From NCBI GenBank assembly GCA_004369045.1, contig ML213508.1, forward strand, positions 773,748 through 837,747: a DNA stretch of 64,000 nt. Direction: 5' to 3'. Source of the stretch: Heliocybe sulcata. Its lineage: Eukaryota > Basidiomycota > Agaricomycetes > Gloeophyllales > Gloeophyllaceae. How positions within the stretch are numbered: position 1 is the first letter of the stretch; each line of letters opens with the position of its first letter. The notes under the pieces are model-generated. The model was not told where the DNA came from, did no database searches, and saw only the letters and a program-made list of their open reading frames with translations. Positions 22,347 through 55,058 of this stretch are shown here, piece after piece. The position numbers were made by a program, and so were the translations under genes.

Positions 22347-22743
22347 ATGCATTCAATTGCATCCCTCGTCGCATGCATCCTTGTTCTCGCCACTGCAGTG
22401 AAGACCCAGACATGCGCGGTTTGCCCTTCGACAGTCGTCGACAATGGCGCCACGTATTATTTTGCGTACGACGCGAACCAAGGCGACGGCGTAATATTTT
22501 GCGAGTGAGTCTCTGGTCTTATACAGTCTGCTGGCTCGCTTGCTGAGACCACTAACAAAGCTACATTCCCGATCCCGATGGACCTGTCTTCCTTGATAGG
22601 ATCTGTTACTATAATGTGAGCTTTCGAGGCACAAAGAGTGATCGTAGTAGGCTCATAGAAGTCGTCCATTACAGAGCGATGGGTCTGTTGCATCGCCCAG
22701 CCCATCCTATTGTCCCGCCACGACGACTACTGATTCTTGCTAA
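22347..22743 (+). CDS. Six-cysteine small secreted protein, copy 1 (93 aa)
   Basis: Three exons (22347-22504, 22561-22615, 22675-22743) with in-phase GT-AG introns encode a 93-residue protein. It has a signal peptide (MHSIASLVACILVLATAVKT) and a short mature part holding exactly six Cys: CAVCP at the start, FCDY in the middle, CYYN at the second exon end, then YCPA and a final C. The same layout and the same two intron positions recur in genes at 50669, 52757 and 54651, and in decayed copies at 42913 and 48567. This is the only one on the + strand and lies 20 kb from the rest. Not a hydrophobin: the eight-Cys CC pattern is absent. Function unknown; likely secreted and disulfide-stabilised. 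Confidence 0.8.
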
Positions 22744-23995
22744 AATAATGGCGAAGGAGACGGAGATTGAGCTTCTTGGTGACATTTGAAAGAGGGCAGT
22801 AAGAGGGCTTGTTGGTCGCTACAGTGGCATACATACCGCACGTACGGAAGTGCGGGAGATATTCATGTGATAACCACAGACTGGCACGAAGAAGACCTGT
22901 TGAGCTTCTTCGTGTGCCGACCACGGATGGCCTAGCGTGTGGCATGGCAGCAGTTTGACAGGGTGCCATATGGGTCAGTGAGAGCCGGACGTCCGACAGA
23001 AAAGGCAACTAACCTTGTCTAAGTATGTTCCTGGGGAGTGCGCATCCCCGCTGCATTTCTGTTTGTCGCAACTAGAGATTCTGTTCACAATGGCCCAGAA
23101 TGATTCACTCACATACCACCTGATTTTGTGCAGTAGTAAGCAACCTCGCCTGTTGCGACCTTGTCCGCGTGGCTGTCACTCTAGCTAAAGCATAGGCGAG
23201 ATATTCGTCCCACCTTCACATTAGTAACACGCGTTAACCGAGACCTTACAATTTGGGCGCGGAGATGCCTCAGATAATGCACATCCGAGATAACGGAATT
23301 GCTGCCATGGTCAGGCTTTTAATTAGAGGGCTCGGGGGGTAAGTCATGCGGAGAGAACCAAGCAAGAGATTTGAACTGGCGTGTCAACACTGATCCTACT
23401 CACGACAGCAGCTCGAGTTAAAAATATGCGAGGACTGGCGGTTCCGTGAGCTATGATTGATGATGCGGACTGTGCATCCACAACCATGATCAACGAAAGC
23501 TGTCATGCAGGCAGCAGACGAGACGCGGGTGGTGCTACTTACAGGCGGAAGGGTGCGTGCACGATCTGGGGGTGCCATTCGCCGTCTTGCACGCCCTGAG
23601 TTCAGGAGGACCTATGTATGCCAGGAGACCTCCGGTAAGACGGGAGCTTCAATTACAGAAGCCGCAACTTGAAGTGAGAATTCCCACGCCCATTCGCGTC
23701 TTGCTTCCTACCGTATCCCTGCATGTAGAGTCTGTCTGGTAGGGGCATGAAATTTCTTCGCTAACATCCCGTGAGTTTGTTGTCCCGTCCTATAAGATCT
23801 GTCATCATGTTCTGATACATCATCATCTCAGTGGCGGGGAGTGCCTGCGTAGTTGCCATGCGTTCGGGCATATATCTCACCGACAAGAGCGACTCCGGAT
23901 ATATGTGCTTCCCGCCCTCGTTTTGAACTACGGCAAAAGAGTCTGTCTGTCCGACGACGACCACTTCACTACATTTATTACTGCTAGTGAGGGCA
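22744..23995. other. Intergenic stretch, no gene seen
   Basis: No frame longer than about 95 codons and no recognisable motif. It separates the small secreted protein gene from the F-box-like gene. Confidence 0.5.
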
Positions 23996-25205
23996 ATGGA
24001 CGCAGCTGGTCGCAAAAGTACGGTTATACCTCCAGAAATACTCTACGAAATACTATGCGACATCCTGGCGGATTTCTTCCACATTGGTGTCATGGATGAA
24101 GACCGGACAGATTCCTGGGATACCATATCCATTCTTACTCAGACAAGCCGCTTGTTCCGCGATGTAACCACGAGGATTGTCAAACAAGCATTAGGGTCAT
24201 CTCGCCATCCGGATGGTAGGTAAGATAATTGACCCCTCGTATCTGCTTGTTTGTCAACCCAAGTAGGTGGAAGGTGCATCCAAAAGCAATTTTGTCGACA
24301 ATGCGCCGATATGGCCGACTACTACGTGCGGGCGGCCAGAACGTTGTCTCCCAAGCAGCGATGCAGTGCTTATTGACGTTACCTAAGACACCATGGCTCT
24401 CCACCTACATAGGAATAGTCACTTCTAGGGACTCCTTGGAACGCATACGGGAAAAGTCCGCAGACTTTGAACTCCGGGCATGGGCAGGTGCTTATCCGCC
24501 CATAGCCGCTATGGCTCGAAAACCCGTCGAAACATCAAGATCTGTGAAGCAGCTCTCCCTGCGACGTAGGTCGCTCTATGCAGCTTTGGAGAACTATGAG
24601 CAGACACTCATGTGTACGCATCATTGTTTAACCGCTGCTTTTGTATTCGCTCATCGCAATGTCTTATAGTGAAAATACTGCTGGACGGATGGCAGGCCAC
24701 GAATAAGGTACTACTGAAGTATGATCGTCGTTGTCGGAGACTTCCACCTCCCAGCCAGAGAGAAATTGAGGTAAGCGTGGCTTTACCGTCTGTCCCTTTG
24801 ATGACTTCATTTCCAGAGTAGATTTTTGAATCAGACTTGACGGACGCCTTGAATATGCTCAAATCCCACGACAGCACGTTCGCACGTCGGTATGCAAGCG
24901 TCGTGGATAAAGTACCGAAAGGTCAACTTGAAGCAATGGGGCCAGACGAGCTATCCTTTCGGATCGAGCACGCACAGGAGGTTGCATACCGGACAATGAA
25001 GGCAAATTTTTGATATTGAATATTCATAATTGTGGGCGCTCACGCGACGACACAGATGCTGCAGAATCTGATTCGCGACCTGCGAGAGATATGGTCGATG
25101 ACCTTCCAGGAAGGATCCCAGATCCCTGACATCGTGGAATGTCTTCTGTGGCGTTTAGATCCTGACCACCCTGTGGATTCCGATTCTTCGAGGTTGACGC
25201 CATGA
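23996..25205 (+). CDS. F-box-like protein, paralogue of the gene at 14476
   Basis: The N-terminus holds an F-box-like motif (VIPPEILYEILCDILADFFH, about residues 9-28) followed by a helical body, as in the paralogue at 14476. The ATG at 23996 was chosen because it directly precedes the motif. Probable exons: 23996 to the GGATG before GTAGGT (about 24216), RWKVHPKAIL onward to CTCATG|GTACGC (about 24611), VKILLDGW to ATTGAG|GTAAGC (about 24770), then IFESDLTDAL to AAG at 25001, and a last exon from MLQNLIRDL to the TGA at 25203-25205. The intron after AAG 25001 must begin with GC (GCAAAT) to keep frame. The end, DPDHPVDSDSSRLTP, resembles the paralogue's acidic Ser-rich end. No other domain seen. 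Confidence 0.65.
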
Positions 25206-25747
25206 TACGGCGGTGTTTACCATGCGGGTCAAGAGAAGGGCTCCCTTTCCTTCGCTTATAACTAACACTTATCGCGCCTGTTTAGCACCTGTATACCACC
25301 ACAGTTCTCGGATGCCATGCATCGTAGGATAAAATAAGGATTCATAACCACATAATTCCGCAATGGTCACCTTCATAGGCATATCTCACGATTCATATCA
25401 CCAGCAGCGTACACGAGGACCAAGGTAATGGCGACATGGGCGTCGTATACGACGAGGAATTCGAGTCAGCATTTTCCCACGTTCCGATAATCGAAACTAG
25501 CCACCTACTCGACCGAGCCCGTAGGCGTTAGATGGTTTCCCGCATGAATTACCGATGCTGAAGGCATCTTCCCAGCGGTATCTCCTGCGCAGTAGGATCC
25601 CACGGGCCTTGCATGGCTTGCAGTCCCGAGCCTGCTTCGGAGTGGAAAGGAACCGCAAGTGAGCTTCTCCCCTCTTCGAAGTTTTCGCATGGTCTTAAAG
25701 AAGCTAACAGTAGTTTCCATTTTCAAGGTATAAGTCGTGTTGCTGCG

Positions 25748-28463
25748 ATGTCCAGTTCTCCCAGCGCACAGGCAGATTATGTGCGTGTAAACGACCTCCG
25801 GTTTAACGTCAAGCTCGAAGATGGGGTGCGATGGCCGACAAACGGAAGTGTACTGTCGCAGCCGGTGCTGCTCACACTATCTCTGCCTCACGATCTCAGG
25901 CGTGCTGCTCAGGACGATGACATCCAGAAGACACTAGATTATGACGCTCTGTCGACTAGGCTGATGTCCGAACTTGATTCTGGGACTTCTTCCTTCCCCT
26001 CGCTGGAGGCTTTACTCGACTATATCTCGGACTCTTGCTTCAGAATGCATCAGCTGGAAGAGATCCACCTTCGCGGGAAGAAAATCAAGGCTGTTCTGAA
26101 CGCTGAGGCGGTTGGTATCGAACGGCACAGGACCAGAGACGGGCTCCTTGTCTATCCGGACAGATATTTTATTGAAGGCTTACATTGCTCAACCATTGTC
26201 GGCATTAATCCAAGCGAACGGGAAGTAAAGCAAGGTGTCCGCTTCCATATCTCAATGTACAGGTCGCGTATCTCCTCGGTGCCGGTCGATTTCCGCCAAT
26301 TGACGCAAAAGTTAACAGAAGTACGTGTCTCAGATCGAACACCGATATATTCTCATCAAAAGGATCGCATCCCAGGCTGTTGAAGCTTCATCGTTCTTGA
26401 CCCTGGAGGCCCTAGCATCTCACGTGGCTCGGACTGTTCTGTCCGCATGCAGTCCAACGTGCGACAGGGTGGTTATACGGGCAGCTAAGCCAAATGCTCT
26501 GCTTCATGCCGAATCCTCCGAAGTCGAGATTACCCGAACACTAGCGGACTATGGAGGCAGTGGATCATCTACTAGCAGGGCTAAGCACGCTGTGGAGGGT
26601 ACTACGCTAGCTTCAGGACATCGACCCCTATCACAATTGCTACGCCAAGTCTCTCCGGACCTGTTCACCAAAAGCGATGGGATGCATACGGCCGCGATCG
26701 CGCTGGGATCGAACCTCGGGGATCGATTCGCTAACATCGAACTGGCCCTACGTCTACTAGAAACGCCTGAGGTTCTCAGAGATGAATACGATCTGTTAGA
26801 CGATCCGAGGATATCAATTATCGACACCAGCTTCATGTATGAGACTGCGCCCATGTATGTCACTGACCAGCCGAGTTTCATCAATTGTGCTGCCTTGGTG
26901 AGTCAATCTCCACCGAAATGAGTATTCCTTCTGAAATCGATCTCGCACGGCGGTTAGATCGAGACGGACATTATGCCTCAGCGCCTCCTAGCGGTACTGA
27001 AGAAGATTGAGAAAGTAGTGGGCCGCGTTCCGTCTATACGGAATGGGCCGAGAGCTGTTGACTTGGATATCCTGACTTTCGATTCCGAAGTGATCGATAC
27101 TCGAGCGCAAGATGCCAGAGCGGATCTCAGCAACCTTGAGGGCCAGCTAGTGGTTCCGCACCCTCGCATTGCCGAGCGTGCATTTGTCTTACGGCCCCTT
27201 GCTGAGTGCGCATCTTTAATCCCCGCTCCTTGACGTGATATTGATTCTTCGTAAAGTATGATCCCGAATTACGTGTTGCCTAGATCTGGCAAATCTATTC
27301 GACAGCTGCTTGCGGACCTCACCGCATCCGCACCAAAAGACGAGCCCCCGATGTATCGAGTAATCCCATTCCCCAAGTACCCAAATCAAGTGAATACCGA
27401 CTCCACACCGCCAGCCTCTGGTACAATGACGCTTCCCACTGTACCGCCTACTAGCAAGTACTGGAGATACCTCTCTTCGCCTGGAGACAGGTCATCCAAG
27501 TCGGCCCGTACCAAGACCTACATTATGGCGACGCTGAACGTGACGCCTGACTCCTTCTCCGATGGGTCTCAGCATAATGGCTTGCCCGCTGCACTATCGT
27601 ATGTGAATTCCTCGGTCGAAGCAGGCATGGATATCTTGGATATAGGGGGGTATTCGACCAGGCCTGGCGCAGCGTACGTCTCACCTGAGGAGGAAAGCGC
27701 GCGGGTTGTACCTGTCATCACCGCTATACGCTCCCTCAACGCTGATTCGCCTCAGGGACCATCGGCAGAAACAGCCGCCCATGCTAGGGATGCCCTGATA
27801 AGCGTGGACACGTTCCGTCACGAGGTCGCCCAGGCTGCAGTGCTCGCTGGCGCAAACTGCATCAACGATGTGTACGCTTTCGCCGGACCCGATTACCCCT
27901 TGACCCAGTCGTCCGCCGAGCATTTCCTGAAGATGCGAGAAATCGCGAGAGAGCTGGCGGTGCCGGTGATCCTCATGCACTCTCGGGGCGATGCAGGTAA
28001 GAATAAGGATTACTCTGCCTATAGCTACGCTAGCGACAGCCCCGTCCTCGAGGGCGTCCGCGTCGAGCTAGGCGAGCGAATCGAGGCTGCCGTAAAGGGC
28101 CGGGGCGGTCTGCGGAGGTGGCTCGTCATTGTGGATCCCGGTGTGGGATTCAGTAAGACTCTCGAAGGAAACTTGGATGTTCTGCGCAGCGGCGCAGAGA
28201 TTGTGACTGAGAAGGAGGGTAATCCGTTGGCTGGGTACCCGCAGTTGATAGGGACCTCCAGGAAGTCTTTCCTCGGGAGTATTCTGGAAAAGCGGGATGA
28301 GGATGGGACGTACGAGGGGAGGAAGACGGAGCCGAGGGAGAGAGGGTGGGCGACTGCTGCTGCTGTTAGTGGTGCGGTGCAGCAGGGCGCGACTGCGGTT
28401 AGGGTGCATGATGTGATGGAGATGGGGGATGTTGTTCGGGTTGCGGATGCGCTCTGGAAGTGA
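25748..28463 (+). CDS. FOL1: Trifunctional folate synthesis protein (DHNA-HPPK-DHPS)
   Basis: One polypeptide of about 849 residues catalyses three successive steps of folate synthesis: dihydroneopterin aldolase, hydroxymethyl-dihydropterin pyrophosphokinase and dihydropteroate synthase. Exon 1 (25748-26278) and the start of exon 2 (26334-26897) give two aldolase-like repeats. HPPK begins at IALGSNLGDRFANIELAL and ends with GPRAVDLDILTF in exon 3 (26958-27205). DHPS fills exon 4 (27257-28463) with MATLNVTPDSFSDG, ILDIGGYSTRPGA, LISVDTFRHEVA, VDPGVGFSKT and GTSRKSFLG, all strongly conserved pterin- and sulfonamide-binding motifs. Joins are in phase. For the first intron only the 26279-26333 choice restores frame. 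The ATG at 25748 fits best; an in-frame upstream extension adds 45 residues. Confidence 0.95.
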
Positions 28464-40685: not shown

Positions 40686-41631
40686 AGTTTCAGGCTCGAA
40701 GCGTGGGTTATTTTCACCCGTCACCGTCGTTTGAAGGCTCTGTTCGGGCTCCTTTCGCAGAGCAGATATATGCAATGCAATGTACAGTCGAACACCGCGG
40801 TTTGTGCAATATGATGCATTGTGTTCCGTTGTGCTATGCTGAAGTCTGACCGGTTTACACAGTTCTATGCTGAGACCTTCCTCCCCTAGGAACCCGTTCT
40901 TCGGTGCTGATCGCGGCTGCATAGGATTCCCTGTCATACTCACTGACCCAAGCACCGTTGCTATTGAAAGGAAGAAGCTGGAAAGAAGTCCGAGTGGTGA
41001 GGATATTCGATCGAAGACCTCTGGATCTACGAGCATCGGGCGCACATGTTAGATCACGGGTGCTAGTTCTACTAGGTGGGTTGGGTATGCGAGCTTCGGT
41101 CCGCTTGAACGGTGCATGCAGCGATCGGCCTGTTTTGCACTTGTTGGACGGTAATGGTTGGCAAACTATTCTGGCCTCTTGTTCAAAGCTGAGCCCGCAG
41201 TCTCTTGCCTTTCGCAAACACCTGGATAACCCGAATGCCATTACGGCTATATATCCGCTCCAGTGCTAAAATGTAGCAGTTCGTTGTGAGTGTAGCCGTG
41301 AAAGTATGGAGCGGCATGAAGACTAAGCTTTAGCAACTGATTGATTCCAAAGCCCGGCTACATATCAGACCTTATTTATAGCCTTGATGAAAGATTGACA
41401 CCGCAATCTTAGCAAATAAACTCCATGTAATCCTTTATGAATAAAACCTTACAAAGTTTCCTGCAAGTAGAGGAAGTATTGCACAGAGGAAAGACACGCC
41501 GGAGGACACTAACGATAACAGTCGCGTGTGCGTGATGTCACAGCAGTACAATTGTGGCGCGACTCGGAGAGCGCGTACACTCGGATGTCCCGGAATTTCG
41601 AACTTCGAGATTTCCTGTCCACAACCGTCTC

Positions 41632-42444
41632 ATGCCACCTGCTAACAGGAAAACACCCTCATCCACGGGTCCGTGCCCTAAGCCCTTCGTCGAGCTTCTC
41701 GGTGAATGCTTCGAGTTAGCTCGGTATGCTCGCTCCTGCTCCCGATGTAGTGGCCTTTAACAAAAATAAACAGGGCCGACGCGAAGCGCTTCCCAGACAT
41801 ATTAGAACCGTATGAACGCCCCCATGCGCACGAATTCTACCCAGACGGCCGCAGAAAGCCAATGTATTGTCTCGGATGGCTCCTTCCCCTGTTTGACCTG
41901 GATTCCTACGTAGCCCCTTATCCCGGTCAAGAAATGTCCGAGTGGTTCCCCACCCCCGAGATACAACGAAAGTGGCGTGAGCTTGGTGCGGAGGAGAAGT
42001 TCCCGTAAGTTCGACTTTCTGACTTCTCTAGGACCTCTTACTTACCATGCTCTCCAAGTCACTTTAGGGCTCCCGCTATGTTCGAACTGGACGACTACGC
42101 CCTGTTCGCACTTGTCTACAATGAACCCAAGTACCTTGCGCATTTGTGCGGCGCCAACTCCGAGTGGGACCGGTCCCTGGTATGCGAGGTCGTGCGGGTC
42201 GGTGCAGCCTCCATGGGTCTGCGAGAAGAGATGGTAGATCGGGTCAAATGGTGGAATTTCACTTCGTTGTTGACTCCGCGTGCTGTGAGTATGATTTGTT
42301 TGTTGAGAGCTTCTATTGATATTTTCCTCCGTTTTCCAGACTCTAACCTCTAAGCTCGTGCAATACGCAGATGAAGCGTGGGATACGATGTCCGGTGGCG
42401 AGAGCGACGGAGAGCTGGAGTCCGGTCCAAATGCGTTGGACTAG
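41632..42444 (+). CDS. Family X, copy B (214 aa)
   Basis: Exons 41632-41723, 41774-42004, 42068-42284 and 42340-42444 match copies A and C in position and phase. The internal exons are the same lengths in all copies (231 and 217 bases). The protein starts MPPANRKTPSSTGPCPKPF and differs from C mainly in exon 3 (APAMFELDDYALFALVYNEP, and SLLTPRA in place of SLAIERA) and in its end (ESGPNALD). Downstream, on the opposite strand, lies a decayed six-cysteine secreted protein gene, as with copy C. Differences between copies are mostly substitutions that leave the frame open. Confidence 0.75.
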
Positions 42445-42912
42445 AATTCTGGGTTCGACTTGGGTTATTACCACCCGTTAACCTCAGCCGAAGGTCTTGT
42501 TCGGGTCCCTTTCGCAGAGCAATGTGTATGTAATGCGGTCGAATACCGCGGTTTGCGAAATGTGATGTGTTGCGTTCTTTTGTGCCACGTAAGAGCACTG
42601 TGGTAAGTCTGGCTTTCTTCGTAACTCATCAGGGCTGTATCTTCCTACCGTACTGACCTGTGGACGTGCCATTGATTTTATACAGGGAAGAATCTGGAAG
42701 GAAGTCTGGATAGCGGTACTGATCCAGTCGAGCCTCCGCGCGCATACTGGTTCACGGACACTGGTTCCGCAGTTGGGTGTGGATAGCAGTGAGTCGATCC
42801 GTCAGGAGCATGACGTTCGGTTGATATACCTACTCATACGTGGAAAAGGTGGGCACATCCGTTTCCCTGTTCGAGATCATTCAGCCCTTGGCATTTGGGC
42901 TATGTTTCGCAC

Positions 42913-43147
42913 CCAATACCAGCAGACCTGCGACAGGAGGGGCCCGCCGTTAGGATTCAAGTTGTACCTGATAGTGTGCAGGTGAGTAACTAACATACAG
43001 AGGAAACGCGTGCGAGTAGAACTGCGGTGCTCCTAGCCCTCCACTGACACCTTCGAGGTTTGCATTGGTCGGACAGATCGTGCACTGCTGGGCGGCCGCG
43101 AGGGTGCCAATAGAGGCTACGCCGACCGTGATGAAGAGGCTATCCAT
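42913..43147 (-). pseudogene. Decayed six-cysteine secreted protein, copy 2, with a replaced leader
   Basis: Exon 1 reads CTICPTNANLEGVSGGLGAPQFYS. A stretch before GGLG is missing and the Cys expected after F is Tyr (FYS where the intact copy has FCS). Exon 2 (YNLNPNGGPLLSQVCWYW after the splice) is recognisable; the third exon is not found. About 226 bases present at the matching place of copy 3 (48765-48990) are absent. The 5' end therefore now reads MDSLFITVGVASIGTLAAAQ, joined to upstream DNA, instead of the normal MKAFVFIIVALAVGTLAAAQ. It remains hydrophobic, so a leader-like peptide was recreated by chance. Confidence 0.7.
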
Positions 43148-43907
43148 TATCCGTCCCAACAGGACTGAGGTAGGTACTGGAGTGTGCCTAATATTCAAGG
43201 CGCCTGACGGCGTGCGTGAGGCCAGCGCCGGTCATAACACCTCGCAGAGTGACACAGATCTCAGCTACAAGACGCGTAACTGGACGGATATATGTCATCC
43301 CGAACTGTCTGGATGGTTCTCTGAAGTTGTTGCACACATCAAGCCCGGCAACGGTATGTACCTAGTTACGCGTTTATTTTCCCGTACCATCCGTCTGACC
43401 CATCGGACCCTGAGGAGTAGCCGTGGATATCAGGAGCTGCAGCCTGCAGAGTGCCCCGCCAGCCTGATGGACACGCATACTCTCCGCGATAGCGGTGGCG
43501 TATGTGGATTATCCTAGTGCGCTCCTGGAGTTACTGATGTAAAAATGCGAGCTCCATTTCGCTAGCTCACAAAGCTTTTGACTTCAGAGGGATAGGACAT
43601 TGATCATTGGTACGCGAGGTCGTGCAGCCTCCATGGGTCTGCGAGAGGAGATGGTAGACCGGGTAAAATGGTGGGAATTCCTCTTCGCTATCGATGGAGC
43701 GCGCTGTGTGTATGCCTCGCGTGCCGAGAGCTTCTATTGATATTTCCTCCGTTCTCCAGACTCTTACCTCTAAGCTTGTGAAATATGCCGACCAAGGCTG
43801 GGCGACGGCGTCCGATGACGAGCAAGAACTGGAGTCCGGTTCGGACTAGAGCTTTTGGCTCGAAGCTTGGGTTATTTCCACCCATCACCCTCGGCTGAAG
43901 GCTCTGT
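43109..43907. repeat. 799-base duplicated block, copy 1
   Basis: This block recurs at 48990-49788 with the same length and, by eye, only two substitutions (43202 G against A, and GGGTTA against GGATTA near 43871). It covers the upstream region of the secreted protein gene, a + strand frame discussed below and fragment D of family X. On the + strand it carries donor-like GAG|GTAGGT (43169) and AACG|GTATGT (43355) sites. It has possible exons APDGVREASAGHNTS... and SSRGYQELQPAECPASL ending GGVCGLS at a TAG (43514-43516), which may be a further decayed small gene. Confidence 0.9.
43609..43849 (+). pseudogene. Family X, 3' fragment D
   Basis: The segment matches the second half of family X exon 3 (REVV region missing a few bases, then ASMGLREEMVDRVKWWEF), the intron and exon 4 (TLTSKLVKYADQGWATASDDEQELESGSD, stop TAG 43847-43849). 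Exons 1 and 2 are absent, and there are small losses in exon 3. It cannot encode the full protein. The sequence downstream matches the region after copy A. Confidence 0.85.
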
Positions 43908-44419
43908 TTGAGCTCCTTTCGCAGAGGAGATATATGCAATGCAGTGTACAGTCGAATGGCGCGGTTCTTGCAATATGATGCATTGTATTCCGTTGTGCTG
44001 TGCTGAAGTCTGACCTGTTTACACCGTTTTATGCAGAGACCTTCCTTCCCTCGGAACCCGTCCTTCGGTGCTGATCATGGCTGCATAGGATTTCCTGCCA
44101 TACTCACTGAACCAAGCTGGAAAGAAGTCCGAGTGGTGAGGATATTCGATCGAAGACCTCTAGATCTACGAGCATCGGATGCCCATATTGGATCACGGAT
44201 GCTGGTTCTACTAGGTGGGTTGGGTACGCGAGCTTTGGTCTGCCCGAACGCCGGTGCAGAGCCTGTTTTGCACTTGTTGCTGGACGGTAATGGTTGGCGA
44301 ACTATTCTGGCCTCTTGTTCACTCTTCCTGCGTTCATGGAATTCATCCGGTGACCATAACCCAAATCCCATTACGGCTAATCTCCGCTCCAGTGCTCAGT
44401 AGCTGTCCGTTGTGAGTAG

Positions 44420-45540
44420 TCGTGGATAGTGTATGGAGCGGCACGAAGAATGATATCGGTCTTGATGCGAAGTTATTGAAGTTGGTGAGCGAATCCAGTC
44501 CCATGATTTCCAAGTGACTTGGAAGTTCTGAACTGCCAATGGATAACAGATGATCGAGCAGAGCCATTGAACAAGAAACGCAGCAGGCAGCTCAACAGAT
44601 AATCGGGCACTCTTCGCCGGCACTGAATCTTCAGCGCACACCATATCTGTGAGACTATTTTCTCTAATCGGACTCCTGCGATGCATCATCTTAACCTTAC
44701 CGAGACACTGTACAGGTCAGGGCCCTTGGACACCGTCAGCATGTCCAGCACAAGCCGAGACAGAAGCTTATGAACTTCGAGCAAGCACCTGGTCATGCGG
44801 CGTCGTTGAATGATCTGATGAATCCCACTGCTCTTACTACAATGATGCAGTTATTCGTGGGTCTCTTGAGGTGGAAATCCTTGCTCATGGATGTCGCGTG
44901 CGTGGTGGGTATCTGTCTCCCGTGTCCTTCGTAATGCAACATCCTGATTTACGTCTATGGGAATGCAAGGCAGTGGCGGACGATATTATCCCTCTGCAGT
45001 TTCCCGTACTAGGTATGGCACGTCCTCTGACCGGGCAGATGCAGGTCAGTCTATTGATACTAGTGCGAGATGATATCAGCAGCGACGAGAGATTTTCCCG
45101 GGAAGCGATGCTTGCGAATCACGTCTGGAGAGATGGCTTGGTGGTGATCTTCCGGAAGCATCCAATCTCAAGGCCGAATGTTGAGCTTAGGACGTGGGTA
45201 CGTGTTGGCATACATCTCTTATTGCTCGAACTGCATCTTACAGAGAGTCACAGACCGAAGGTGTGCTTAGGACGAACCTTCGGTGAGGGGCACTTCGCGA
45301 AGATGGTCGTTAAAGCTGTTAACCTTCGGCAGCCTGCAGGATTCAAGCTACTTCAGATACGCTGTGATCGAAACTCGTCTCTATGGTTGTTACGCCTGCG
45401 ATACGTCGGTTCTCTTTGGAAGATGGCCGCGTAGTTCTCCACTTCCACCACCGCGGGGGAAACACACTCAATCACAAGATACGCAGAAGTCAGGAAGAAG
45501 GTGTGCAGTTATTATTGCGCGTGATCAAGGGATCTTTAGG
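44420..45540 (+). pseudogene. Truncated, decayed cytochrome P450 copy
   Basis: This is a broken relative of the intact P450 at 59930-62159. Matching stretches occur in order: GTGTATGGAGCGGCACGAAG (as at about 61009), the I-helix exon (TCTTCGCCGGCACTGAATC), and GTGGCGGACGATATTATCCC (61573). Then come the PER-region remains, and GGTGTGCTTAGGACGAACCTTCGG (the haem-binding exon, 61870). Last is the segment encoding a GGNTLNHKIRRSQEEGVQL-like end. The first half of the gene is absent and the remaining exons carry frame breaks and deletions. It follows the repeat downstream of fragment D. A smaller scrap of the same start is present at about 41300. Confidence 0.88.
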
Positions 45541-45653
45541 AAGCTACTTAGTAATACAACATTACAATTTACTGAACCATGTAATACCGGAACAGAGGGC
45601 AAGAAAGAAGCTTCTTATGATATGAGAGCTGCCAAGTTTAAGCTACAGCGGCT

Positions 45654-47083
45654 TTATGCAGTGGGCCCTGCCCTGCCCCTCCTCTTCGAAGTCGTACGGG
45701 CTGCTCCCGCCAGCATGTTCGCCCCTGTTTTCCTCCCAGTACTCGCTCTTGCCCCTTCGCCTGAACCCACCACTGCTACCTCAGCTCTTGCACCAGTCTG
45801 AGATGTACCAGCTGCAGTCTGGCCAGACTCCCTGAGACCGGTACTTTTGAGCATCTGGTACACTCGGTCCACCCAGCCTAGCCAGGTCCACTGGCTCCAA
45901 AAACCTGGCTCTTTGTAGTTACTGAGATAGTTCTTGATCCACTTCATGTGCGTGTTTGAAGCTGCTGATCCGAGACGCATGGGCTTGACCCATTTACTCT
46001 GATCCAATGGCAAGGTGCTATCGAAGAGGTTTGTGCTGAGGTCATACCGCTCGCCTGTATCAGGGCTGGGTTGGAGGATGCGACGAGGATGAATTTTGTG
46101 ATAGGCCTTGCGGAGCTCATCCTCCAGCCAGAATGCATGGTCCGGCACCATCTCCTGCTCCAGGTCATCAAAAAGCAGCTCTCCTTCAGTCTTTCTATCC
46201 TCATCTGCTAGTCTCCTCCGGAGCTCCGCTGCTTCTGCAGCTACATCAAGTGGTCTGACAAGAGTATCTTCGCCATGATCTACAAGATAATATAAGATGG
46301 AGACTATGATGACCATGAGGGTCACGCACCATTGCCAGCAGCCTCAAAATCCATTGGTTGCTTGCTGCCTCGGTCCGAAGCATACATGGCAGGATCGAAT
46401 GCATAGTCTTGGAACTCTGAGCGTTTGCAGAGGCGCCAGGTCCACCATTGACCAGAGGCTGCGAGTAACAGGACTTCGTCTTGGCCAGCATAGCGTAGAG
46501 ATGAAAAGAGGCATAATGCCTGATCGTCAGCTTGGACAGTGGCATCCCTGATGTGCTTGAGGACCTGTCTTAAATGGTCCTTGGCATTCTTGGGACGACG
46601 GGAGGTGGGCCGTTTCAGTTCGAGGATCAATGGGATGGACATCTCATCGATACGCATAGAGAAGTGCAGTTTGCTATATAGCTTGTCATCCCATGAAGCT
46701 TGAATAGCCTGCAACTTGCTTTGGATTACTTGAGCATGTCCCGGAATCCTCGCCTTCCCTCTCAGGATCGGGGTGATGAACAATATAACAAAATCGGGGA
46801 TAACTTCTACTGTCGCGGTACCTGCTTCAGTCCGCATGGATTCATCTCCAGAAGAAGGTAGCAGAAGAGGGGGTGAGTAGATCCTGAACTGTGGTGTTGG
46901 AAGCAGAACGCCCAAACGCCGGCCACACAATTGCACTAAGATTATATTCCATACGGCGTGCGTGGCGTCTTCCGTGCCGCGCGAAAGGAAGTAAGAAGTG
47001 AACAGGAGGCACCCAGTGAAGAGAAATACTGGGGCAAGTTGTCCCGGTGAGACAGTATCAAGCAGTTGACCGAGCGATATCAT
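45654..47083 (-). CDS. Uncharacterised protein with PD-(D/E)XK-like nuclease motifs
   Basis: Two exons, 46331-47083 (through about 46330) and 45654-46279, joined AATG|GTGCGT to CTTGTAG|ATCATGG in phase, give about 460 residues. A hydrophobic helix sits near the N-terminus (APVFLFTGCLLFTSYFL). In the middle, PDFVILFI followed about 75 residues later by IPLILELKRPTSRRP gives the spaced D ... ELK (ExK) pattern of PD-(D/E)XK nuclease cores. A YAGQDEVLLLAASG segment follows. The C-terminal half is charged with a basic, Gly/Ala-rich end (TSKRRGRAGPTA). Many basidiomycetes have families of such ELK(R)P proteins of unknown role. It sits between duplicated blocks, just after the P450 pseudogene. Catalysis is a guess from motif spacing. 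Confidence 0.6.
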
Positions 47084-47137
47084 ATCTCAGTAGACTCAGT
47101 AGAGAGGAACTGCGCCTGCGACTGATTGATCCTTCGA

Positions 47138-47188
47138 AAGGTTCGGAGCTCGAACATGCCTCGAAAGGGTCGGAGTTCGAACATGCCA
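47138..47188 (+). repeat. Short tandem repeat upstream of family X copy C
   Basis: The unit GGTTCGGAGCTCGAACATGCC / GGGTCGGAGTTCGAACATGCC occurs twice in a row, separated by TCGAAA. The unit contains the inverted repeat GAGCTCGAAC/GTTCGAAC-like core. It lies 60-110 bases before the copy C ATG, so it could be a protein-binding site. Confidence 0.6.
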
Positions 47189-47251
47189 CGTGCACCATTG
47201 TCATCTATAAATCAACTTGAACTTCAACCTCAGCCCATCCACAACCGTCTC

Positions 47252-48064
47252 ATGCCACCTGCTAACAGGAAATCACCCTCATTCACGGGTCCGTCCTCTA
47301 AGCCCTTCGTCGAGTTTCTCGATGAATGCTTCGAGTTAGCTCGGTATGCTCGCTCCTGTTTCCGATGTAGTGGCCTTTAACAGAATTAAACAGGGCCGAC
47401 GCGAAGCGCTTCCCTGATATATTAGAACCGTACGATCGCCCCCATGCGCACGAATTCTACCCAGACGGCCGCAGAAAGCCAATATATTGTCTCGGATGGC
47501 TCCTTCCCCAGTTTGACCTGGTTTCGTACGTAGACCCTTATCCCGGTCAAGAAAGGACCAAGTGGTTCCCCGCCCCCGAGATACAACGAAAGTGGCGTGC
47601 GCTTGGTGCGGAGAAGAAGTTCCCGTAAGCCCGACTTTCCGACTTCTCCAGGGTCTTTCTACTTACCATGATCGCCAAGTCACTTCAGGGCTCCCGCCCT
47701 GTTCAATGTGCAGGACTACGCCCTCTTCGCACTTGTATACAATGAACCTAAGGACCTTGCGCATTTGTGTAACGCCAACTCCGAGTGGGACCCGTCCCTG
47801 GTACGCGAGGTCGTGCGGGTCGGTGCAGCCTCCATGGGTCTGCCAGAAGAGATGGTAGATCGGGTCAAATGGTGGAATCTCTCTTCGCTAGCGATCGAGC
47901 GCGCTGTGAGTATGCCTCGCGTGACGAGAGCTTCTATTGATATTTCCTCCGTTATCCAGACTCTAACCTCTAAGCTCTTACAATATGCCGATGAAGCGTG
48001 GGAGGCGATGTCCGGCAGCGAGGGCGACGGAGAGCTAGAGTCCGGTTCAAATGCGTCGGACTAG
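47252..48064 (+). CDS. Family X, copy C (214 aa)
   Basis: Exons 47252-47343, 47394-47624, 47689-47905 and 47960-48064, in phase and the same exon lengths as copy B. The protein starts MPPANRKSPSFTGPSSKPF, then VEFLDECFELARADAKRFPD and HEFYPDGRRKPIYCLGWLLP. The acidic tail is SGSEGDGELESGSNASD. An in-frame extension upstream (with more Mets) is open, but the MPPANRK start is shared with copy B. It is followed by a convergent, decayed secreted protein gene at 48567, exactly as copy B is. The gene looks functional; nothing in it reveals its role. Confidence 0.75.
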
Positions 48065-48566
48065 AGTTTTTGGCTCGACGCTTGGGTTATTACCACCCGT
48101 CTCCCTCGGCTGACTGCTTTCTGGGTTCCTTTCAGAGAGCAAGGTGTATGTAACATAACGAGAATCGGTCGAATACCGCGGTTTGTGAAAAGTAATGTGT
48201 TGCATTCCGTTGTGCCACGTAAGAGCGCCGTGGCAAGACTGGCTTTGTTCGCAGCTTATCCGCATCACGGCTGTATGGGTCCTTCTACTGTACTGACCTG
48301 TACTGTACTGACCTGTGGACGTGCCATTGATTTTATACAGGGAAGAATCTGGAAGGAAGTCTGGATAGCGGTACTGATCCAGTCGAGCCTCAGCGCGCAT
48401 ACTGGTTCGCGGACGCCGGTTCCGCAGTTGGGTGTGATAGCAGTGAGCCCATTCGTCAGGAGCATAACGCCCGGTTGGTATGCCTACTCATACGTGGACA
48501 AGGTGGGCACATCCGTTTCCCTGTTCGAGATCATTTAGCCCTTGGCATTTGGGCTATGTTTCGCAC

Positions 48567-48801
48567 CCAATACCAGCAGACCTGCGACAGGAGGGGCCCG
48601 CCGTTAGGATTCGGGTTGTACCTGATAGTGTGCAGGTGAGTAACTAACATACAGAGGAAACGCGTGTGAGTAGAACTGCGGTGCTCCTAGCCCTCCACTG
48701 ACACCTTCGAGGTTTGCATTGGTCGGACAGATCGTGCACTGCTGGGCGGCCGCGAGGGTGCCTACAGCCAAGGCTACAATGATGAATACGAACGCCTTCA
48801 T
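48567..48801 (-). pseudogene. Decayed six-cysteine secreted protein, copy 3
   Basis: The leader MKAFVFIIVALAVGTLAAAQ and CTICPTN are well preserved. The middle of exon 1 is shortened as in copy 2, and the third family Cys is replaced by Tyr (FYS). Exon 2 is readable (YNPNPNGGPLLSQVCWYW) but its donor is GTGCGA and no exon 3 with the CPA...C end follows. The same lesions occur in copy 2, so they predate that duplication. A TATA-like element is not evident upstream. Confidence 0.7.
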
Positions 48802-48989
48802 TGGATCGGTAACTGGGTCGTCTCTTGTGCTGCTGCTACCGTCTTACGGCTCGTTTGATCGCATCAGGATGGAGGGTGTCCGCGCTGGCACGGGATCAAT
48901 AAAACAAGCTACTCAGTTTGTGTGAATAGGTATCCACTGTACGATTGCGCTGCCGGATCGACTGGTCGGCCCGTCCCGGACAGCGACAG

Positions 48990-49788
48990 AATAGAGGCTA
49001 CGCCGACCGTGATGAAGAGGCTATCCATTATCCGTCCCAACAGGACTGAGGTAGGTACTGGAGTGTGCCTAATATTCAAGGCACCTGACGGCGTGCGTGA
49101 GGCCAGCGCCGGTCATAACACCTCGCAGAGTGACACAGATCTCAGCTACAAGACGCGTAACTGGACGGATATATGTCATCCCGAACTGTCTGGATGGTTC
49201 TCTGAAGTTGTTGCACACATCAAGCCCGGCAACGGTATGTACCTAGTTACGCGTTTATTTTCCCGTACCATCCGTCTGACCCATCGGACCCTGAGGAGTA
49301 GCCGTGGATATCAGGAGCTGCAGCCTGCAGAGTGCCCCGCCAGCCTGATGGACACGCATACTCTCCGCGATAGCGGTGGCGTATGTGGATTATCCTAGTG
49401 CGCTCCTGGAGTTACTGATGTAAAAATGCGAGCTCCATTTCGCTAGCTCACAAAGCTTTTGACTTCAGAGGGATAGGACATTGATCATTGGTACGCGAGG
49501 TCGTGCAGCCTCCATGGGTCTGCGAGAGGAGATGGTAGACCGGGTAAAATGGTGGGAATTCCTCTTCGCTATCGATGGAGCGCGCTGTGTGTATGCCTCG
49601 CGTGCCGAGAGCTTCTATTGATATTTCCTCCGTTCTCCAGACTCTTACCTCTAAGCTTGTGAAATATGCCGACCAAGGCTGGGCGACGGCGTCCGATGAC
49701 GAGCAAGAACTGGAGTCCGGTTCGGACTAGAGCTTTTGGCTCGAAGCTTGGATTATTTCCACCCATCACCCTCGGCTGAAGGCTCTGT
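48990..49788. repeat. 799-base duplicated block, copy 2
   Basis: See the block at 43109-43907; the offset is 5881 bases throughout. Upstream of it, this copy still holds about 226 bases (48765-48989) that are missing at the other site. Downstream of 49788 the two copies diverge at once (CTCTGTCCGGG against CTCTGTTTGAG). Near-identity over 799 bases indicates a very recent duplication or gene conversion. Confidence 0.9.
49490..49730 (+). pseudogene. Family X, 3' fragment E
   Basis: Identical by eye to fragment D, lying inside the second 799-base block. It holds only the end of exon 3, the intron and exon 4 of family X, with stop TAG at 49728-49730. It was therefore copied together with the block and is not an independent gene. 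Confidence 0.85.
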
Positions 49789-50668
49789 CCGGGTTCCTTT
49801 CGCAGAGCAAGACATGTCATGCAACGAGATGCGGTCGAATACCATGGTTTGCGCAATGTGGTCTGTTGCATTCTGTCGTGCCACGTTGTATGAGTGCTGT
49901 GGCAGGTTTGGCGTCCTTCTCAGCTCATCCGGGCTTTATCGGCGTACTGACTAGTGGACGGTAATCGATGTTATACAGGGAAGAATTTGGAAGAAAGTCT
50001 GGATATGATGACCGTCCAGTACAGAAATTCTATGAGCGTCAGACGCCCATATTGGATCGCGGACACTGGTTTCTCCAGACGGGTTGGGTGTGCCAGCGGT
50101 GAGTTAATCCGTTAGGAACTAACCATACGTGGACAACGGGCAACACCGGTATACTCCCTTTGCGGCGAATATTTGGGCTCAGTATTCGAGCCTAACATGA
50201 AAGCATACTTCAGTCACCTCGTTGTCTTGTGGCCTTCTCAAGCATCATTTGACCGTGAGGCTTGCAAACTATTTGGGCACCTTTTCCACTGTTCCTGGAC
50301 TCGTGATGTTCGTCGAGGGTCCATAATAGAGCTGAGCACTTACACTGACCTTGCCCTAGTAGGAACGACTGATTTCAGTACCTCACCTTTTCCCAAGATC
50401 GCGGACGATGCAAGACGCCGCGTTAATGCATTATACGCTGGTGACCCCTGCATCCGCAGCATGTTTGGTACCATATTCCTTGACAGGTCATCACAGTGCC
50501 GGCGCCCATGGCGATGTGGCTGACGGAACTCGGTGACGATTCAGGTCGGTCAGCAGACAATATACCGAGATCTGCTATGTTTCGTGCGCAGTTATCATTC
50601 CATTGGATTGCTACATCGCCTCAGTCAATGTTCCCCGTAGCTGCTCTAGGTTTCGGCGACTAGTGACC
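49789..50668. other. Intergenic stretch between fragment E and secreted protein copy 4
   Basis: A 350-base frame (50173-50523, +) has no recognisable motif and I do not call it a gene. The first part resembles the DNA downstream of family X copies (GGGAAGAATTTGGAAGAAAGTCTGG). Nothing else supported. Confidence 0.4.
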
Positions 50669-51076
50669 TCAGTTGCTGTGCGCCGGGCACGGTCCAGTCG
50701 ATGCCGTCGCTGGGCAATTCGCCCAGCTCTCTCCTAATACCAGTGCTCCGTTTCCCTGTTCGAGATCATTTACCCTTGGCATCTGGGAATTTCGGGCGTT
50801 ACTCACCGAATACCAGCAGGCCTGCGACAAGATGGGGCCGCCATTAGGATTCGAGTTGTATCTGGTAGTCTGCAGCTCAGTAACTAATGCGACTATTATA
50901 TTGAACAGAGGAAACGCGTACGAGCAGAACTGAAGTGCTCCTAGCCCTCCACTGGCCGCGGTAAGGAAGTAAGTGACACCTCCGACATTGACATTGGTCG
51001 GACAGATGGCGCACTGCTGGGCGGCAGCGAGGGAACCTGTTGCCACGGCTGCTGTGATGAATGTGAAGGCCTTCAT
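50669..51076 (-). CDS. Six-cysteine small secreted protein, copy 4
   Basis: Intact three-exon gene. Exon 1 starts at 51076 with the leader MKAFTFITAAVATGSLAAAQ, then CAICPTNVNVGGVTYFLTAA and GALQFCS. The first intron (GTACGC to GACTACCAG) joins to SYNSNPNGGPILSQACWYS. A GTGAGT donor follows, and the last exon encodes ANCPATASTGPCPAHSN, stop at 50669-50671. The acceptor of the second intron is not certain (TTAG|GAGAG or a few bases further). Six Cys fall as in copies 1, 5 and 6. This copy keeps the residues and the middle of exon 1 that copies 2 and 3 have lost. A TATA box lies about 62 bases before the ATG. Confidence 0.78.
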   Translation of the reverse strand: MKAFTFITAAVATGSLAAAQQCAICPTNVNVGGVTYFLTAASGGLGALQFCSYAFPLFNIIVALVTELQTTRYNSNPNGGPILSQACWYSVSNARNSQMPRVNDLEQGNGALVLGESWANCPATASTGPCPAHSN

Positions 51077-51137
51077 TGGATGGATAGCTGGGTCGTCTCT
51101 TGTGCTGCTGCTACCCTCTCACTGAAACAAGGTCTCG

Positions 51138-51143
51138 TTTTAT
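51138..51143 (-). promoter_or_regulatory. TATA box of secreted protein copy 4
   Basis: CTATAAAAC reads on the minus strand at about 51137-51145, 60-odd bases before the ATG at 51076, a normal spacing for a strongly expressed small fungal gene. Confidence 0.5.
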
Positions 51144-51210
51144 AGCTTCGGGATGGAGGGCGCTTGTGCTCATACGGTGTCAATGAAACAACTCACTAAC
51201 TCAGTTCGCG

Positions 51211-51765
51211 TTGATAGGTATCTACTGTGCGATCGTTCTGCCAGATCGGCCAGCCGGGCCCGTCCCCGACAGCGACGGATTAGAGGCTGAGGCTATCCAT
51301 CATCCGTCCCAAACGCGACTGAGGTACGTACTAGGGTGTGCCGCACACTCAAGGCGCCCAACGGCGCTGCTGAGACCGGCGGCGGTCATAACACTTCGCG
51401 GAGAAAACATAATGAAACAGGTTCCAGCTTCAAGACGTGTACCTGGACGGTATGTCATCCCGAACTGTCTGAAGTTTCTGCGTAGTTGTTACACTCGTAT
51501 TTTCACCGTTCAGGTGGTCCGTCGACTAACGGATCGTGAATATGGTAACATAAAGCCCCGCAACGGTACGTACCTAGTTACAGATTCATTCTCTCGTACC
51601 ATTCGTCTGACCCATCGCACTCTAAGGAGTAGCTGTGGATATCATGAGCTAGATTGCCCCGCCAGGATGGACCCGCATACTCTCCGCGATAGCGGTGGAG
51701 TATGTGGATTATCCCAGCGCGCTCCTGTTGTAACTGACGCGCGATTGCGACCTCCAGGTTGCTAG
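51211..51765 (+). repeat. Diverged third copy of the 799-base block (5' part)
   Basis: This stretch upstream of secreted protein copy 4 resembles 43109-43520 and 48990-49400 but is clearly older. Shared pieces include GAGGTACGTACTAGGGTGTGCC, GGTCATAACACTTCGCGGAG, ATGTCATCCCGAACTGTCTG and CATACTCTCCGCGATAGCGGTGG. Both donor-like sites are kept. It shows that secreted protein gene plus upstream block form one ancestral unit. Confidence 0.75.
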
Positions 51766-52756
51766 CACACCAAGAAGCTAGGCTGCACCGTCCCCAGAGG
51801 AATAAGAACAACCGCATCCATGCCGTCTCACGGGATCGGCCGATGACCAGCACGATTGATAGGATGCCTACTAGAGCAACAATAGAACTTCAGTCGCGCT
51901 AGTGTTCGGAGTTGCGAGGAACCAATAGACAGCCGAACCTCCGCGAAGACCCGAGCTGTTATGTGGCCAGGTCATAATTGGTGGATCTGGCGGTGGTGCA
52001 CTGCTTAACTGAATATTTGACCGCATCCCCGCCAGCTTCGACACGTCCATACCCTTGCAACAGCGGTGTTCGACCCCTGATATACCACAGTCGGACCGGA
52101 ACATTTACCAGCTAGTCCTGAAGCTCATTGCCAGTCGACTGTGGCTATCTAATATTTGATGCCTGCCCTAGAGTAATCACGTGGTGACATGGGCTAAGCT
52201 TCAAGTGTTAAGACACCGGTATCTGCTGTACCGGCTTTCGCATATTTGTCTTCGACAAACACAGCAAACTATGCACAACTTTGAGCTGGATTGCTGCTCG
52301 CGTTGATCTGTTTCATAGCTGACATTCGCTCGTCTGGACCTTTCCCAAAATGCGGACAACGTAGTACGCAAGAATGTCGGCCGCGAAAGGCTGTCAAGCG
52401 AGCCGCGTACTTGACCATATTCTTGGCTTCCTGGAGAACCAATATATCAAGCCCACAGACTCTCTATAAAGCCGATTCTCGTTGCAGAGTTCGACTGGAA
52501 TTCTGTGAAATGAATGAAGATGTGTGCGTTTGGCTGGCCATCGCATCCGGCGGCGGCAAGCGTCTCAGATTGACTGGCTCAAACCAGAGATTTTCGGCTG
52601 CTGGCGTCTTGTCTCGGATGTTTCACAATTCATCTTTGTCCGGACTTCACAGCTAGCTCTAGAGGACGTTCCACCAAAATACTTACTTCGTTTATCCAGG
52701 CGATAACCTAATCATTTCGCTCGGCGAGCCCTCGATACATCCAAATCCGATTCTAG

Positions 52757-53183
52757 CTATAGCACGCAGTACGGGGCGGACACTGATGTCGGACATAAGG
52801 CGCTGGAACCATCGGTGAGGATGCCTCCCTGGTACTGTCGCAATGTGCTGATAAACCACGAATGAAGCGAGAGAATACGCCAAACCGTACTCACGTCATA
52901 GAAACACGGCACATCGAAAACCCCTGGGCCGGCAGTGACAGGATTCTCGTCGTATCTGGATCGATGATTTGTGCGGATATGGATGAAGACGCAATGAATC
53001 CACTGACCCGCAAAACACAGGGTTAGTCAAAGCACCCGGGACCATGTGGCTAAGTCCATAGGTGGTGTTCCCGCTGGTGAACGATGGAGGGCACAACTCC
53101 ACGAGGCATGGCTGCGCTGACGCTGTCCCTGCCAGTTCCAGGAGAGCGACAAGACACATCAGTCGTAGGCCGCTTGTGAGCAT
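52757..53183 (-). CDS. Six-cysteine small secreted protein, copy 5
   Basis: Leader MLTSGLRLMCLVALLELAG with TASAQ, then CLVELCPPSFTSGNTTYGL (here the first two Cys are four residues apart instead of two) and PVFCG. Exon 2 joins as GG|GTCAGT to ATCCAG|ATACGAC, giving YDENPVTAGPGVFDVPCFYD. After GTGAGT, exon 3 from ACCAG|GGAGGC gives GGILTDGSSALCPTSVSAPYCVL, stop TAG at 52757-52759. Both introns sit at the same places and phases as in copies 1, 4 and 6. Frame intact. Sequence is far from copy 4, so it is an old paralogue kept by selection. Confidence 0.75.
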
Positions 53184-54650
53184 GTTGGATCGTGTTAGGG
53201 GTCGCTCCTCCAAAACTGTGTCTGGAACCCCTTATAAGCATTTTCGCAAGGTGCGTCTCTATGAGCTACGTACGTACGGATGCCAGACTCTTCAATACAG
53301 CGGAGCCGAGAGCGTTGGCTCGGGAATCCGACGCGTGCGGTGTTGAAAGACAGGGGATGACGTCATCGTGGCAACGGTGTTACCGGTGCCATTACTTGAT
53401 CCTGCTCTGGAATCAGGAATCAGATGTCTCCAAGGTATGGGCCACGTTGCTACTCGTATTGTCGTCGTAAGCACTCACGGCCCCGACTACTAGCTACTGC
53501 TGGTGAAGCTGCGGACATCTTCGATCTTCGTTGTTCGCCCAGAAACAAATGTTCCCATTCTTCAGTCGGCATGCTCACAATCCTCGACCTTCTTCCGGAC
53601 TGTGTAGAAAGACGTTGTTCATATGCTGCTTAGGCATATAACGCCGGAGCCCGAGGCCAGCTGGGTAGCAGACTAGTTCACTAGCAACAGCCCGACATGG
53701 AGGAGAAGGTGACACGTATGCTGCACAGCCAAGTTAGCAGTACTGCCGGTCTAGTCATATCAGTCAGGAGCGCCTCCACTACAAGCGACGAAGCGTAGCC
53801 GTATCTGCAAACATCTCGCTCGTTCGGCTAGAGCTGGGCAAATGGAAAGTGGCGCTGCCACTCGTGCAGGACCAAGGCGCACATTACGGCGGATGCAGCT
53901 CCGACTAAGCCCGAGAGAACGGTAATATTGCAATTCAAGAACAACATGAAGAGCGTTATTGGCTGTGATGGTGTGTTTCGTATTATCCTTGGAAGTCCTC
54001 TAATTCACTCGCAACCCGGAGTCAGGCACGCGTCGGTCCAACAGCGGAGGCTGCGTCATTCAATGAACGGTGGACGGTGTGCGGCGACGTTAAGGTATGG
54101 CTCGGGACCGGATGAAAGCTATAAGTAAAGGTGGTTTGGACTCCAAGGGATGGTGCACGGAGTTAAATTCGCTCATTTTCTCAAGGGTGCTGACAGGAAG
54201 AGTCCTTATGAAGGAGTTTCCGCCGTACTATCATACCGATCAAGGCCCAAGGACTACGGCCTTGGTCGTATTTCCTTTACCCATGGGAACGAACAAGGCA
54301 CCGAAGATATTTGTGGACAATACTTACCCAAGGTGTTTCGCGCATGTTGCGTGCCAGGTGCCGGGACGAGGTCTTGTATCTCAATTGCTGACTTCACTGC
54401 GATTACGCTATGCACCGGCATGGGTTCGATAGTCTATTCTGGAATCGCCGAGTTGACTCTGGTAACGACTTGGGAGGCCTACGCATCTCGGCTGAGGTAC
54501 GCATTTCTTTGTTAGAAAATAGACATTGACGGCTCGTTCATGTTCATTGGATGCCATACAGTGTATCCCTAGGCTCATGCGTATCCGGCGACTCTAACAA
54601 TACAACCAATCCAACTCCGCTGCCCTCGATCATCCCCTCTACGTAATCAT
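53184..54650. other. Intergenic stretch, no gene seen
   Basis: Several open frames of 90-121 codons overlap in the 54.1-54.5 kb part, but none has a motif, good start context or plausible partner exon. I do not call a gene. Confidence 0.4.
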
Positions 54651-55058
54651 CTAAGTGCAAGCGGCGACGGTTGTGGCGGGGCATGCTGGGACTTGGCTCT
54701 CGCCAGCGCCCTACATAATGTCAGTATTTGATTGCTTGCACGGAGGGTGTGTCCACTATTCACGTACGTTATATACGCACGCGACCTCGAGGTAAGATCC
54801 GGGCACCGGCGAAGCGGTGTAACTGTGTGTGTTGATGTTATCGTAAGTCCTTTTCGTGAGGTTCGCTTGAAGAATGTCAATATCGGCTTACAGGCATGCC
54901 TCGTACGAGCTGCTCAGTGTCATTGAGCTTTCGAGCGTATAGTCCACGTTCGAGATTTCTATGCTCTGAGGGCATACTGCGCAAGACTGGGCAGCGGCCG
55001 GGGATGTTAACCCCAGCAGCGAGAGAACGGGGACGAGGGCGATGAGTGAGATGAACAT
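54651..55058 (-). CDS. Six-cysteine small secreted protein, copy 6
   Basis: Leader MFISLIALVPVLSLLGLTSP and AAAQ, then CAVCPQSIEISNVDYTLES and SSSYEACL. The join CATGCCT|GTAAGC to CACACAG|TTACACC gives YTASPVPGSYLEVACVYN, and after GTACGT the final exon (from TATGTAG|GGCGCT) gives GAGESQVPACPATTVAACT, stop at 54651-54653. Six Cys as in the other copies; the third falls two residues later than in copy 1. The ATG at 55056-55058 begins the leader; the longer frame upstream is not a signal peptide. The frame and all splice sites look intact. Confidence 0.78.

Follow-up and report, generated by a model that had tools for sequence, protein, structure and literature searches.

The question raised by this stretch of the Heliocybe sulcata genome (the window: 64,000 nucleotides, positions 773748-837747 of contig C6, ML213508.1, in a 31.6 Mb assembly) is whether a few small, cysteine-containing proteins encoded in it represent one family, and what such a family might do. 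The original prediction, made from the nucleotide sequence alone, had proposed four genes beginning at 22347, 50669, 52757 and 54651, each of three exons with common intron places and phases, and this was borne out by the splice models of all four (4/4). Judged by their sequences, these genes apparently belong to one old family of small proteins in mushroom-forming fungi, which seems to be unnamed. The four gene models are as follows.

Gene A, 22347..22743, plus strand: exons 22347-22504, 22561-22615 and 22675-22743; 93 residues; spliced model.
Gene B, 50669..51076, minus strand: exons 51076-50922, 50861-50807 and 50755-50669; 98 residues; corresponds to deposited protein P0001 (OE88DRAFT_1333738).
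Gene C, 52757..53183, minus strand: exons 53183-53008, 52955-52895 and 52828-52757; 102 residues; CxxxxCP variant.
Gene D, 54651..55058, minus strand: exons 55058-54892, 54822-54768 and 54710-54651; 93 residues; corresponds to deposited protein P0002 (OE88DRAFT_1656813).

The spliced models contain no internal stops, all eight introns have GT...AG ends and a length of 51-69 nucleotides (nt), and in each of the four genes intron 1 is in phase 2 and intron 2 in phase 0. The models of B and D are identical in every letter to the deposited H. sulcata proteins. The A and C proteins were absent among the matches listed in the three profile searches described below (A was in all three query alignments, C in the first two) and may be unannotated as modelled, the same protein search being known to miss members. 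The cysteine motif originally drawn as CxxCP - C - C(Y/W)Y - CPA - C stood as to its six cysteines and their order, but proved looser in detail: the first spacing is C-x2-C-P in three genes and C-x4-C-P in gene C, the variable residue of C-x-Y is Y, W, F or V, and CPA is replaced by CPT in gene C. Invariant in the four-protein alignment are the six cysteines, three tyrosines, the prolines after Cys2 and Cys5, the initial methionine, one glutamine, one further proline and one glycine. A pattern combining cysteine spacing with splice sites matched the window exactly four times, at genes A-D, and was not matched in 60 + 2000 order-1 Markov windows, which bounds chance only roughly, as the pattern was composed after the genes had been seen. 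One of four TATA-like hexamers lies upstream of each start codon (A, TATAAG at 55 nt; B, TATAAA at 68 nt; C, TATAAG at 53 nt; D, TATTAA at 59 nt). As a separate observation, an open reading frame (ORF) of 135 residues runs open across both introns of gene B (50669-51076, minus strand); these introns are stop-free multiples of three, so that retained-intron products would stay in frame, probably by chance.

A fifth gene was found by protein similarity to B (E 1.3e-4) on the same contig, 281 kb past the end of the window.

Gene E, positions 990-1436 of stretch L013: exons 990-1162, 1226-1277 and 1335-1436; 108 residues; complete; identical to deposited protein P0005 (OE88DRAFT_1347087).

Its intron places and phases are identical to those of A-D, which gives the sharing of introns a more independent support, since gene E was recovered by similarity. 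In all five genes Cys3 is followed by the codon that intron 1 interrupts, and intron 2 comes after C-x-Y-x. The proposed number of four intact members is right for the window; in the genome five were found, every one on this contig. Queries with each of the five genes gave no further members at credible E-values among the best-scored candidates of the genome search; because only the best candidates are scored, the inventory of five may be incomplete. The six-cysteine arrangement (C-x2-CP / C-x-Y / C-x-Y / CP / C) is found in A-E, with x4 in C and an extra cysteine in E, and the phases 2 and 0 of introns 1 and 2 in 5/5 Heliocybe genes, being inferred elsewhere from the proteins P0007, P0022 and P0024. 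The TATA-like hexamer of gene E lies 109-111 nt before the ATG; such a hexamer thus occurs 53-111 nt upstream in all five intact genes, a count made without a chance control. Gene E has a seventh cysteine in common with its Neolentinus relative P0006. N-glycosylation motifs number three in E, five in P0006 and one in C, with none in A, B or D.

A profile search, suggested with the original prediction as a check, upheld it, in that homologues were found in three orders and no credible match to a characterised Pfam family appeared. At least 33 proteins were retrieved, among them three of Heliocybe, three of Neolentinus lepideus, 17 of Mycena, two of Gymnopilus, two metagenome fragments and one each of Agrocybe, Collybiopsis, Rhodocollybia, Arthromyces, Tricholoma and Irpex; Neolentinus belongs, like H. 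sulcata, to the Gloeophyllales, Irpex to the Polyporales and the other seven genera (one species each looked up) to the Agaricales. The search was seeded by shared 5-residue words with the best candidates scored, and it missed P0002 in the second round and P0009 in the third despite their presence in the respective query alignment; as it misses known members, absence from the ascomycetes, Gloeophyllum or other orders cannot be concluded. The second and third searches include earlier matches in their queries, so that the E-values of those rows are circular. With the profile built from Heliocybe only, Neolentinus P0003, which was outside the query, was found at E 1.7e-22 and Mycena pura P0004 at E 0.028.

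The link between the orders is carried by this match to P0004, by profile-profile comparison with and without leaders, by its controls, and by broken gene calls. Seven Gloeophyllales members compared with thirteen others in hhalign gave a probability of 96 (E 4.1e-9; leader columns included, ending before Cys6), and the mature parts alone gave 86.5 (E 4.6e-6), with controls on the mature parts giving 0.3 when one side was reversed and never more than 4.3 over 100 shuffles of the columns. The Cys2-Cys3 spacing is 25-27 in 32/35 rows; the Cys1-Cys2 spacing is 2 in 34/35, partly by construction, since the mature part was located by CxxC or CxxxxC. Outside the Gloeophyllales, A, N, G or S frequently takes the place of the proline that follows Cys2. 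Fragment P0024 ends right after Q-C-K, and at this very residue, the place of intron 1, P0022 ceases to follow the family pattern; P0007 departs from it at the place of intron 2. The letters of P0024 and P0022 fit a gene call that reads on past the donor of intron 1, a sign that this intron may be conserved outside the Gloeophyllales.

Among the five Heliocybe paralogues, each of the ten pairs is only 24-35% identical over aligned mature residues. In comparison, B agrees with its closest Neolentinus relative at 54 of 78 residues (69%) and with a second one at 31 of 52 (60%, a cut piece), E matches its own relative in that genus at 64 of 84 (76%), and the Irpex protein is 52-71% identical to 20 Agaricales rows (Collybiopsis 71, Rhodocollybia 68, Gymnopilus 67, Agrocybe 67, Arthromyces 58, Tricholoma 52 and fourteen Mycena 53-67). 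The 69-76% agreement with Neolentinus and the Irpex values indicate that the family is not fast-changing as a whole; the notion of a conserved scaffold with a changing surface is only partly supported, agreeing with the paralogues but not with these comparisons. In the phylogenetic tree (four of 26 inner branches starred; P0014, P0022, P0023, P0024, P0031 and P0032 dropped, and the mature piece of P0007 cut to 52 residues) the E pair is starred (99/88), and B groups with A (starred) beside two Neolentinus rows (92/85), so that B may not be a strict orthologue. Branches are very long for A (3.89), D (3.03) and C (1.93), and no close relative of A, C or D was found outside Heliocybe. On this evidence the Heliocybe members fall into two sets: B and E have close relatives in Neolentinus, and A, C and D are strongly diverged, which could be due to diversifying selection, to relaxed constraint or simply to age.

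Two decayed members had also been proposed, and both copies exist.

psi1, 48512-48801, minus strand: decayed copy of gene B that keeps its start codon and CxxCP and has lost 21 nt of exon 1 and most of the exon-3 match; the Cys3 codon reads TAC.
psi2, 42858-43104, minus strand: decayed copy; exon-1 deletion and Cys3 lesion as in psi1.
Duplicated segment with psi2, 41618..43120: 88% identity over 1544 columns to 47238-48777, which carries most of psi1.

They probably do not represent two separate decays. Compared with gene B as aligned DNA, both copies show, besides the loss of 21 nt from exon 1 and the TAC in place of Cys3, a common deletion within intron 1 and an altered donor for intron 2, and both lose similarity over most of exon 3. 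The neighbouring stretches 43109-43998 and 48990-49881 are 96% identical, whereas 48778-48989, which holds the psi1 start codon and upstream region, is without counterpart at psi2 by the block boundaries. The surroundings of gene B are 71% identical to the psi1 unit (48512-49455 with 50747-51774), and none of the four TATA-like hexamers is found within 150 nt upstream of psi1. The shared lesions and duplicated segments point to a single decay event that was then copied; in the simplest reading, a duplicate of B probably decayed once and its segment was duplicated afterwards. Several copies of this segment family, at 72-96% identity, lie in 39906-50117 beside the small-protein cluster, and the one ORF tested within them (47708-48064) had no Pfam match.

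The signal peptide that the genes had been said to share is supported by leader-like N-termini in A-E: the putative leaders have hydrophobic 9-residue peaks of 2.0-3.4 in these five and of 2.0-3.6 in 12/12 rows examined, and in three of the five (B, C and D) an A-x-A-Q-like end stands just before Cys1. The mature part, taken as starting one residue before Cys1, comprises about 70-85 residues (about 7-9 kDa), with six cysteines in 25 of 28 full rows and seven in the other three (E, P0006 and P0033). Lysine and arginine were counted in 28 of the 35 rows, leaving out P0007, P0014, P0022, P0023, P0024, P0031 and P0032. Mature B, C, D and Neolentinus P0003 contain neither residue, A has one, P0006 two and E three, and the 21 rows from outside the Gloeophyllales have 1 to 5. 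The mature isoelectric point (pI) is 4.1-5.2 in 7/7 Gloeophyllales rows, and in five other rows it is 4.4-5.7 for three and 7.5 for two (P0012 and P0021). Without lysine or arginine, mature B, C and D offer no internal tryptic cut, and such proteins may be missed by standard trypsin-based proteomics. Predicted structural models are all-beta. The model of B has a mean predicted local distance difference test score (pLDDT) of 74.7; that of P0017 has a mean of 81.9, with values of 82-93 for its blocks over 21-90.

As had been anticipated, the family is not one that is readily recognised: no credible Pfam match was obtained for 24 members with matches listed at E up to 10, nor a credible match among the solved structures searched. 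A literature search, of open-access scope with most subscription papers outside it, returned no paper under six family locus names and none on small secreted proteins of either Heliocybe sulcata or Neolentinus lepideus; queries on cysteine-rich orphan families likewise gave only unrelated matter. Among known families, cyanovirin-N homologues are also small and all-beta, and the source name of Gymnopilus dilepis P0014 begins with "Cyanovirin-N domain-containing"; the cyanovirin-N fold has four cysteines, unlike the six here, and no Cyanovirin-N Pfam match was found in the 24 members, P0014 included. Cerato-platanins are small secreted cysteine proteins with beta content, too. They are described as having about 150 residues and four single cysteines (PMC8596622, in excerpt), whereas the proteins here are shorter and have six, and identity with them was rejected by cysteine pattern and the lack of a Pfam match. 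Hydrophobins resemble the family in being secreted, disulfide-rich proteins of about 100 residues that are multigene in mushrooms. Their eight cysteines are arranged as C-CC-C-C-CC-C (in the excerpted part of PMC8596622), whereas full rows here have six or seven single cysteines and no CC pair; the earlier statement that this is not a hydrophobin is thus correct, and no hydrophobin Pfam match occurred in the 24 members. The Pleurotus ostreatus proteins SSP1-6, likewise an orphan small secreted multigene family of a decay mushroom, are about 18 kDa in size and have a homologue table that, as shown, is without Gloeophyllales (PMC7105643); they are set apart from the 7-9 kDa mature proteins here by size and species table only.

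What these proteins do can be approached from these properties. We favour, with a probability of about 0.4, a hitherto undescribed family of non-enzymatic proteins, stapled by disulfides, that would act at the contact of hypha and substrate. This reading draws on the introns shared by five genes, the agreement of B, D and E with deposited proteins, the Cys2-Cys3 spacing, the hhalign result and the all-beta models, and also on the leader peaks, the acidic Gloeophyllales rows poor in lysine and arginine, the TATA-like hexamers and the genera of the relatives, which are mostly saprotrophic litter and wood decayers. The putative leader would have the protein exported, the mature part would fold as a compact all-beta domain with three disulfides, as the models predict, and the protein would be at work in the acidic zone around the hyphae. 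It may have no catalytic role and might bind at the hypha-substrate interface, to the cell wall, the wood surface or another secreted protein, in a mode that we liken to that of small surface-active or wall proteins. Several observations weigh against this: the seventh mature cysteine in E, P0006 and P0033; the pI of 7.5 in P0012 and P0021, by which acidity is not family-wide; the grand average of hydropathy (GRAVY), which ranges from -0.29 to 0.38 and is not diagnostic; the B and P0017 models, which share 21 alignment rows and so are not independent; and Tricholoma, an ectomycorrhizal genus, by which the family is not limited to decayers. A role as ligand, inhibitor or signalling protein would be equally compatible.

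Defence or competition, by a secreted toxin-like protein or inhibitor aimed at other fungi, at bacteria or at small animals and with the paralogues diverging according to target, seems unlikely but deserves weight. The small cysteine-stapled scaffold, the long branches of A, C and D with no close relative found outside Heliocybe, and the adjacency of B, C and D with decayed copies of B, a sign of gene turnover, all agree with it. The original prediction had likened the family to defence peptides. The usual antimicrobial ones are cationic, and the absence of lysine and arginine from mature B, C and D, at pI 4.1-5.2, speaks against that kind, which, with one such residue in A and three in E, fits badly; an acidic inhibitor or lectin-like toxin would still be compatible. 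The 69% and 76% that B and E retain with their Neolentinus relatives also argue against it. A surfactant equivalent in function to hydrophobins, self-assembling as a film on air or wood surfaces, we consider rather doubtful: size, leader, GRAVY of up to 0.38 and the single-cysteine scaffold would suit it, and other non-hydrophobin secreted families modify surfaces (PMC8596622, in excerpt), but the six single cysteines lack the CC doublets of hydrophobins and GRAVY is negative for A, E, P0003 and P0006.

A host-directed effector as in plant-infecting fungi, the other likeness originally suggested, fits badly and is improbable, as the homologues come from three orders and from genera that are for the most part saprotrophic. 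It is true that the proteins are small, leader-bearing, cysteine-rich and without Pfam domain, the usual criteria for effectors (PMC10380501, in excerpt), but the same excerpted source lists H. sulcata among brown-rot fungi. The effector BASIDIN, whose homologues include a Heliocybe protein, is described there as without cysteines, with closest relatives of 137-163 residues (PMC10380501), and so represents a family separate from the six-cysteine proteins. A likeness by chance or wrong gene models, to which the low paralogue identity and the failure to find A and C as annotated proteins might point, can practically be dismissed given four pattern matches in the window against none in 2060 Markov windows, the agreement of B, D and E with deposited proteins, the match to P0003 at E 1.7e-22, and the breaks of P0007 at the intron-2 place and of P0022 and P0024 at the intron-1 place.

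Other features of the window are the following.

136-1215, plus strand: part of a 1,3-beta-glucan synthase gene (Pfam E 1e-203).
11784-13250, minus strand: ORF with six copies of a repeat of about 168 nt; its N-terminal end matches Pfam SLX1_C.
25613-28463, plus strand: folate synthesis region with dihydroneopterin aldolase and pterin-binding domains.
58857-59210, minus strand: ORF that we take to resemble a piece of the signal peptidase SEC11; no Pfam match at E 0.01.

Small secreted proteins account for 40-60% of the fungal secretome, and the majority are orphans with no known domain (PMC7105643, in excerpt); a further orphan family, well defined and apparently unnamed, is added to them here. 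Going beyond the interface role favoured above, we tentatively propose an undescribed secreted family, present in three or more orders of Agaricomycetes, whose six-cysteine all-beta fold is unmatched by the solved structures searched. Several Gloeophyllales members, having no mature lysine or arginine, would be stable in the acid, proteolytic zone of brown rot and invisible to trypsin-based proteomics, and the family would be diversifying in Heliocybe by tandem duplication and decay. Defined by cysteine order, intron places, a spread over three orders and a confidently predicted fold, and with conserved and diverged members in one genome, the family offers a tractable entry point, and the composition of its members without lysine or arginine suggests, in concrete terms, how standard proteomics could overlook such proteins.

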